Assembly (NCBI RefSeq): GCF_019320115.1
Contig: NC_089587.1
Location: 90,073,405 to 90,137,404 of the forward strand
Direction: 5' to 3'
DNA: 64,000 nucleotides
Origin: Miscanthus floridulus
Taxonomy: Eukaryota > Streptophyta > Magnoliopsida > Poales > Poaceae
Below, in pieces: positions 59,145 to 59,717 of the stretch. Position 1 is the first letter of the stretch. The number at the start of each line of letters is the position of its first letter. Made by a program: the position numbers and the translations under genes. The notes below the pieces were generated by a model. The model ran no database searches, had not been told where the DNA came from, and saw nothing but the letters and a program-made list of their open reading frames with translations.

Positions 59145-59717
59145 ATGGCTCGTGCCAAGATGACGCCCCGTAAGTCCACCGGACCCAAAGGAGTTCCTCG
59201 TCACCAACTTGCCCCTAGAAATGATGGTGCTAGCAGTAGCAGTGCTAGGCCTGATCCCCAGGCAGAGATACAGAGGATTTCTGTAGAGTTAGCACAAGCT
59301 ACTATAGATAGGGCTTTGGATGCTATACAAGTAGGAGAATTACAGGGTCAATTGAGGCATCTCACCACCGCGCATAGGAATTGTGAACGTATGTTGGTTC
59401 GTACGGTGGAGGGAAGAAATGAAGCTTGGCAGAGGGAAAATGTAGCTAGAGCTAGAACTCATGAGCTAGAATTCTATGTAGAAGATTTAGAAGAACATAA
59501 TACCTATCTACATGAGGAAGTTCATAGGCTTAGCAATCTACTAAATCCGAATCATGAGCCTCAAGCTGATGCCATGGACCCCAGTGTCATCCTTGCCGAT
59601 GATGATGAATCGGGAGAGGAAGAAGAAGAAGAAGATCCTGAAGAATTAGTAATGATCAATGAAAGTGATGATGAAGGCGGTAATAATTCGGGAATGGATA
59701 TCGAGCCTGAAGTTTGA
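59145..59717 (+). CDS. E2 ORF0: intact protein with histone H3-tail-like N-terminus
   Basis: An intact 190-residue ORF; the start is the ATG one base after an acceptor-like CTACAG. After Met it reads [15 protein letters not shown], keeping H3 A1, R2, K4, T6, R8, K9, S10, T11, G12 and K14, and then a QLA motif as in H3 19-21. Residues ~45-145 are Glu/Arg/Leu-rich and likely coiled coil, with the AHRNCERML block shared with E1. The tail (about 150-190) is highly acidic ([16 protein letters not shown]). Nothing resembles the H3 globular domain. Ala at position 2 would favour Met removal, giving an H3-like free N-terminus. The function is unknown; a chromatin role is inferred. Confidence 0.8.
   Translation: [190 protein letters not shown]

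Follow-up and report, generated by a model that had tools for sequence, protein, structure and literature searches.

Why would an open reading frame lying upstream of gag in a plant retrotransposon begin like histone H3? The question is raised by a 64,000-nucleotide stretch of Miscanthus floridulus DNA (the whole of it is called the window here), which holds two LTR elements, E2 and E1, each with such a frame, ORF0 (Table 1). Our reading, to which we give a probability of roughly 0.6, is that ORF0 is an H3-tail mimic of a large chromodomain LTR retrotransposon lineage and would present this tail to H3-tail binders.

An earlier note on this DNA had described the E2 ORF0 as intact, which is borne out by its 190 codons and stop, and had aligned the residues after the initiator Met without a gap to H3 1-15, with K4, R8-K9-S10-T11 and K14 kept. 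Indeed, residues 2-16 are identical to H3 at 10 of these 15 positions (A1, R2, K4, T6, R8, K9, S10, T11, G12 and K14), T3 being changed to A. The note had also seen a QLA motif after this stretch. The match holds, with 15 of 21 H3 positions identical when the later PR-QLA is included, but it is not a gap-free extension, as it needs one inserted residue, V17. Among 2,000,000 shuffles of residues 2-33, none reached 10/15 without a gap (best 9) and none reached 15/21 with the insertion (best 11); these shuffle counts cover this motif alone, and not how many motifs a reader could have spotted.

The remainder of ORF0 had been taken for a coiled coil plus an acidic tail, not for a histone fold. The acidic tail is read directly, the coiled coil is predicted from sequence and composition, and the histone fold (PF00125) was not found in the nine ORF0 proteins scanned (P0001, P0141, P0140, P0117, P0142, the E1 piece and three E1-type copies), in which no Pfam family scored above its cut-off. 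The window ORF0 has a sub-threshold Pfam match to Bestrophin_2. Two database relatives (P0068 and P0134, JGI data) bear the names 'chromosome segregation ATPase' and 'bestrophin'; they are apparently misnamed retrotransposon ORF0 proteins.

Table 1. Features of elements E2 and E1; positions are those of the window unless a locus is named.
Feature	Position	Strand	Remarks
E2 5' LTR, TGTAACACC...CCACA, 3.6 kb	55151..58736	+	96.6% identical to L063:737-4324 (blastn)
E2 primer-binding site, TGGTATCAGAGCC	58740..58752	+	sequence read directly
TACAGT before ORF0 start, candidate 3' splice site	59139..59144	+	AG one base before ATG
ORF0 of E2	59145..59717	+	intact, 190 codons plus stop, 190 aa; open reading frame read
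H3-tail-like stretch, ORF0 residues 2-25 (H3 1-23 plus one inserted Val)	59148..59219	+	
Helical, probably coiled-coil middle, residues 37-132	59253..59540	+	lysine-free in window copy; from sequence and composition
Acidic C-terminal tail, residues 133-190	59541..59714	+	translation
E2 gag frame, extent read	59894..61000	+	begins directly after GCAG; several stop codons
E2 pol in pieces: protease end and reverse transcriptase	61289-62422	+	Pfam RVP_2, RVT_1
E2 RNase H	62524-63066	+	assigned by position alone
E2 integrase	63082-63627	+	Pfam Integrase_H2C2, rve; whole pol 61289..63627
E2 Chromo domain, 3' of integrase, outside window	L063:349-567		Pfam E 1.2e-6, 28.7 bits against a cut-off of 25.1
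Element E1	2298..17792	+	LTRs 2298-6974 and 13133-17792, 95.2% identical; flanks GCACC / ACACC
E1 ORF0	7726..8322	+	starts MARTKRTTRKSVGGRAPHHWLAPRE; two in-frame stops (residues 93, 102); preceded by CTACAG

How specific is the likeness? Searched alone against the PDB, the window ORF0 found its top H3 chain at E 0.27, level with an unrelated cytochrome (0.26), and the match is not significant. The statistical significance of the H3 match comes from the relatives and the family profile. In E1-type tails the inserted Val is absent and the alignment to H3 is gap-free: the E1-type copy L068 is identical to H3 1-21 at 16/21 positions (PDB E 0.00023), and the E1 ORF0 of the window (N-terminus MARTKRTTRKSVGGRAP, tail MARTKRTTRKSVGGRAPHHWLAPR) reaches E 0.0014. 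The database relative P0141, which has H3 1-9 unchanged, reaches E 0.0049. Profile A3, built from 12 relatives, matched 129 distinct PDB sequences at E <= 0.01 (best E 6.3e-8), the best 60 of the 129 all being of the H3 family. Likewise, in the searches with L068, E1, P0141 and the profile, the top match and the best 60 rows each were all H3-family (H3, a CENP-A chimera, Cse4). In genome contigs from 84,980 prokaryote species, 131 places fitted the ORF0 tail pattern; four of them encode relatives, all complete or partial eukaryotic histone H3 genes in MAGs. Viral contigs scanned with A2 had 3 pattern matches, none of which was a relative. The PDB profile matches and the prokaryote scan thus make the likeness specific to H3 and a property of the family, and the ORF0 N-terminus is almost certainly an H3-tail mimic. 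The four bacterial MAG contigs with eukaryotic H3 (L105-L108: JAOZOU010000036.1, JAAXJP010000450.1, NYUU01000128.1 and NHEP01000060.1) look like contaminants.

ORF0 recurs in the host genome (2.68 Gb). First-look candidates numbered 10177 for the E2 ORF0 and 6965 for the first 92 residues of the E1 ORF0, and in both cases 150/150 scored places matched. A search with P0141, in which 150 out of 7718 candidates were scored, gave, among the matches listed, none closer than 57% identity over part of the query, and the 12 places retrieved from it are E2-like, some of a third type. We also retrieved and examined 20 long open E1-type copies (L064-L083). The conservation set, from which three duplicate rows were dropped, comprises 111 unique copies, namely 70 E2-like, 21 E1-like and 20 of the third subfamily, the E2-like label taking in a few third-type copies such as L084, L085 and L090. 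We looked for the result that the earlier note had set against its own claim, H3-like residues that are not conserved, and did not find it: K4, K9 and L20 are kept in 111/111 copies, in counts that lean towards conservation because the copies are the best-scoring or longest open ones. S10 and G12 follow with 110/111 each, then A1 (109), A21 (107), T6 (102), R2 (101), R8 (92) and T3 (60). K14 is kept in 90/111, the E1-like copies having Arg in 21/21, and the position of H3 K18 is His in every copy read. A stop falls within the first 25 residues in 2 of the 111.

Beyond the genome, the window ORF0 has 241 protein relatives at E <= 0.001. Among 141 retrieved proteins, a pattern in which the inserted Val and Leu 20 are obligatory picked 41 tails, 37 of them distinct; these N-termini have K9 in 36/37, K4 in 35/37 (Arg in the other two), S10 in 27/37 and T11 in 20/37. 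The first residues of most of the remaining proteins are missing from the comparison because these begin downstream of the tail, and P0008, P0059, P0068, P0085 and P0100 begin inside it. Over seven divergent proteins, mean pairwise identity is 0.71 in the tail, 0.46 in the linker, 0.34 in the coil and 0.37 in the C-tail.

A dN/dS below that of the linker had been suggested as a test of the tail. Within subfamilies the expected order is not found. The 45 distinct intact E2-like copies give 0.32 for the tail, 0.15 for the linker, 0.18 for the coil and 0.23 for the C-tail (0.32, 0.25, 0.17 and 0.23 with CpG codons masked). The 20 E1-like copies give 0.63, 0.46, 0.20 and 0.30, and 0.29, 0.41, 0.18 and 0.41 after masking; bootstrap values for the tail spread widely (0.32-1.12 unmasked, 0.10-1.08 masked). 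That the tail is not the most constrained part within subfamilies may partly reflect its arginine codons, which are CpG sites. Between E1 and E2 the order is the expected one, with pN of 0.27 in the tail against 0.58 in the linker, 0.36 in the coil and 0.40 in the C-tail, synonymous sites being near saturation. The whole of ORF0 is under purifying selection. With the lowest pN and the highest identity in the tail, its deep conservation is therefore clear, and its recent constraint is ordinary.

The composition of the body sets the tail apart in part of the family. The only lysines of the window ORF0 are K5, K10 and K15, which align with H3 K4, K9 and K14. In 45 intact E2-like copies the body has a mean of 0.51 K to 12.87 R, and 29 copies have no K at all; E1-like bodies have 1.05 K to 10.80 R (no K in 6/20), and third-subfamily bodies 4.30 K to 11.90 R, every copy having K. 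P0117, P0140 and P0141 have 5-6 body lysines. In the E2 pol pieces K exceeds R (30:17, 13:9 and 17:8); the first 360 codons of the gag frame have fewer K (19) than R (23). Lysine depletion of ORF0 is thus strong in E1 and E2 and just moderate elsewhere.

What kind of element carries this protein? E2 is a gypsy element. Its 3' LTR (L063:737-4324) lies outside the window, and the 5 bp flanking the two LTRs mismatch (TCTAT, TTTGT), so a target-site duplication is not established. Because its gag frame holds several stops, this copy is not coding-complete. We take its primer-binding site to be of the initiator-Met tRNA type and, from LTR length and the chromodomain, presume the element to be a chromovirus of the Tekay/Del-like kind. 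Aligned to Clr4, the E2 chromodomain has Tyr and Trp at the first two cage sites and His at the third, the cage positions being set by reading of the alignment. Outside the window, E2 is interrupted towards its 3' end by a long N run (L062 about 2406-9775), which lies between two almost identical stretches of about 410 bases (224 bases at 99.6% and 187 identical bases); together with the mismatch of the LTR flanks, this means that the 3' half of E2 may be misassembled.

The window holds other features as well. At 24127-26091 two adjoining ORFs, perhaps a copia gag, include a CCHC-like motif and a stretch extremely rich in Lys, Arg and Glu, and a 3.8 kb inverted repeat (18826-22582 and 31698-35439, 85% identical) is perhaps one copia-like element present twice in opposite directions. 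A 1.2 kb direct repeat (41102-42280 and 44514-45691, 93.8% identical) overlaps two related antisense ORFs (41928-42662, 45297-45773), and local tandem repeats of 79-81% identity lie at 38409-38716.

Where did the tail come from? Its probable source is an H3.3 gene, whose coding exon 1 the element would have captured. In the three host H3.3-type genes L100, L101 and L104, coding exon 1 ends after K23 in 3/3 (introns inferred from sequence), and the likeness of ORF0 to H3 stops just at this exon limit, its last residues in ORF0 being LAPR, with unrelated sequence thereafter. The ORF0 tail is thus like plant H3.3 coding exon 1 in its residues 1-23, its initiator Met, its end at K23 and the CAG at the ATG, which adjoins the ATG in L100 and L101; in L104 the nearest acceptor-like CAG is 29 nt upstream. 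Plant H3.3 genes have an intron in the 5'UTR. Compared by eye, the leader and the H3.3 5'UTR intron gave nothing convincing in the way of homology. Unlike plant H3.3, ORF0 lacks the histone fold, has His in place of K18, one inserted residue in the E2 type, and a helical and acidic body.

Codon usage points the same way in one subfamily. In E2-like tails, 10-12 of the 15-17 residues identical to L104 share its codon (P 0.003-0.013, corrected for the best of six), which holds for 5/6 hand-chosen copies that are not independent, compared with only six H3 genes of the same genome. The third-type copy L085 showed no excess (P 0.20-0.28), nor did five E1-like copies against the six host H3 genes after correction (0.08-0.68). 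For three canonical intronless H3 genes, E2-like codon matches are near expectation, which speaks against these genes as sole donor; an H3.3 donor is therefore preferred, short of proof. With the canonical genes, E1-like copies have a slight excess before correction (0.01-0.16). Taken together, the common exon limits, the CAG or AG at the start and the E2-like codon matches argue for capture of H3.3 coding exon 1. Against an exact capture, the AG sits one base off the ATG in E2-like copies.

Splice contexts that are not all exact matches, like the E1-like codons with no corrected excess similarity to the six host H3 genes, would sit well with convergence, in which the tail arose from unrelated sequence under selection for binding H3 readers, with no H3 gene captured. 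We hold this to be unlikely, since the likeness takes in G12, P16, L20 and A21, outside the usual reader core, and since in the E1 type it runs gap-free to residue 21 and ends at the H3.3 exon boundary.

The same AG-type contexts bear on expression. E1-like ORF0s start directly after CAG or TAG in 21/21 copies, and AG plus one T precedes the ORF0 ATG in 68/70 E2-like and 18/20 third-subfamily copies. In both elements the gag ATG directly follows CAG (...TTTTGAGCAG in E2, ...ATTTTGCAG in E1), and GCAG precedes it in 47/55 E2-like loci with a recognised gag start (72 loci examined, two places counted twice). CAG acceptor-like sites thus stand at the ORF0 and gag starts of two divergent elements (59139-59144, 59890-59893, 7720-7725 and 8731-8734), the one at the E2 ORF0 being one base off. 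Between the LTR and ORF0, the leader, which may contain an intron, has 9 ATGs in E2 and 22 in E1, so that simple scanning would be blocked. This suggests alternative splicing to two acceptors, which would explain both the ORF0 and the gag starts; ORF0 expression probably needs splicing to the acceptor at its own start.

How might such a protein act? Joined to a helical, acidic and lysine-poor body, the exon 1 stretch would, once Met is removed, expose a free A-R-T/A-K terminus like that of H3 itself, carried at the tip of an oligomeric coiled-coil protein. K9 of this tail would then be open to modification by plant writers of the H3 tail (SUVH/KYP type), and H3-tail readers (of chromodomain, PHD, SAWADEE or BAH type) would dock on it. 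ORF0 could then work as a local adaptor that brings readers and writers, or the chromodomain integrase of the element, onto the particle or the integration complex. A free H3-like terminus, a helical body, an acidic tail, few other lysines and a chromodomain integrase are what would fit an H3-tail-presenting protein, and we lean towards ORF0 engaging H3-tail binders. Given such engagement, we would put even odds on an adaptor rather than a decoy. The fullest version goes further: plant chromoviruses would carry their own soluble, multivalent H3 tail from H3.3 exon 1, and the scarcity of lysine in the body would keep this tail lysine-specific. The host would methylate its K9, and either host silencing proteins or the element's own integrase chromodomain would read it. 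This version is tentative and falls somewhat short of even odds.

K9, present in 111/111 own-genome copies and 36/37 recognised database N-termini, and the lysine-poor body of E1- and E2-like copies, which would direct modification to the tail, are also what an anti-silencing decoy would call for. Such a decoy is a variant of the mimic explanation that acts on bulk silencing and not as an adaptor: K9-methylated ORF0 would titrate or block the loop of H3K9me2 and DNA methylation (SUVH4-6, CMT3, SHH1, ADCP1 type), and new copies would escape silencing. Stoichiometry speaks against it, as nucleosomal H3 is in huge excess over retrotransposon protein; for this reason the adaptor is favoured over bulk titration, and we consider the decoy rather improbable.

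Less probable still is that the captured exon was reused as a basic leader, a nuclear-localisation or nucleic-acid-binding tail whose H3 identity is merely inherited. The N-terminus is basic and probably disordered, and Q5, A7 and K18 are lost in most copies and T11 in many, all of which such a leader would allow. Exchange of K and R should then be tolerated, yet K4 and K9 are lysine in all 111 copies, an argument limited by the Arg at K14 of E1-like copies and at K4 of 2/37 database N-termini; moreover, between subfamilies no other part is as well conserved as the tail. That ORF0 is a metabolic enzyme, a hydrolase or similar, as homology modelling of Retrosat2-type proteins had it in the part of PMC3485330 consulted, seems highly improbable: this published model-based annotation faces nine ORF0 proteins with no Pfam family above cut-off and only a short tail, a helix and an acidic stretch. 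Negligible in our view, and ruled out by the shuffles, the independent subfamilies and the family profile, is a chance resemblance confined to one ORF, for which only the non-significant PDB search with the window copy alone could be cited.

We therefore return to the H3-tail mimic and to what is known of comparable systems. The earlier note's remark that orf0 frames before gag are known from rice gypsy elements is borne out: Retrosat2, RIRE3 and RIRE8 have an ORF0 that is, in the part of the source consulted, described as confined to grasses and as having no assigned function, hydrolase guesses from modelling aside (Gao et al. 2012, PMC3485330). The words 'histone', 'chromatin' and 'mimic' have 0 occurrences in that paper. 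Going by the same part of PMC3485330, our elements resemble these in being grass LTR elements that have an extra ORF upstream of gag-pol and whose LTRs are about 3 kb long or longer; the LTRs measure 3.6 kb in E2 and 4.7 kb in E1, and in E2 ORF0 ends at 59717 and gag starts at 59894, a likeness of layout. The LTR termini given there for Retrosat2 and RIRE8, TGTCACACCC ... GGGCGTGACA, are similar but not identical to TGTAACACC...CCACA (E2) and TGTAACACC...GTTACA (E1). Additional ORFs of retrotransposons are reviewed in PMC7264820.

Most known histone mimics belong to viruses or host regulators; influenza NS1, G9a and the SNAG domain of SNAIL are non-histone proteins that have a histone-like peptide. 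ORF0, too, is no histone but has an H3-like peptide, which is conserved in its relatives. It differs from the known mimics in that the likeness covers about 23 residues from the natural N-terminus, lies in a retrotransposon, is kept over subfamilies and probably came by exon capture. EZHIP, as far as the consulted part of PMC12713659 describes it, is also a non-histone protein presenting a histone-like peptide. Among the matches listed in the open-licence literature, none names an H3-tail mimic in a plant retrotransposon in its title or the opening of its abstract.

The E2 Chromo domain follows the integrase, as in chromovirus integrases, and in the parts of PMC6317226 and PMC3350952 consulted, plant type II chromodomains are described as devoid of cage residues (1 and usually 3 lost) and their partners as unknown. 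Compared with what these parts say, an element-encoded H3 tail as chromodomain partner is a new suggestion, the type II status of E2 being ambiguous by the Clr4 alignment. A parallel is offered by the AlkB-like demethylase captured by orchid Ty3/gypsy elements (PMC9289625, PMC12786077, both seen in part), where a plant Ty3/gypsy element has likewise gained an epigenetic module; unlike ORF0, that module is an enzyme domain acting on RNA, and not a histone-tail peptide.

In conclusion, pre-gag ORF0s were already known from rice, and the H3-tail likeness is, as far as the open-licence matches listed show, the new part; it questions the published enzyme annotation of ORF0. With ORF0, an LTR element has probably captured an exon, which selection has then maintained. 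If the fullest version above is true, an element would govern its integration site or its own silencing by means of a captured histone tail. The ligand still sought for plant type II chromodomains could then lie in cis, for which the ORF0 tail gives a peptide-level test. A transposon-encoded H3 tail at thousands of first-look candidate places in one plant genome (150 scored per element) would offer a direct handle on the interplay between elements and their silencing.
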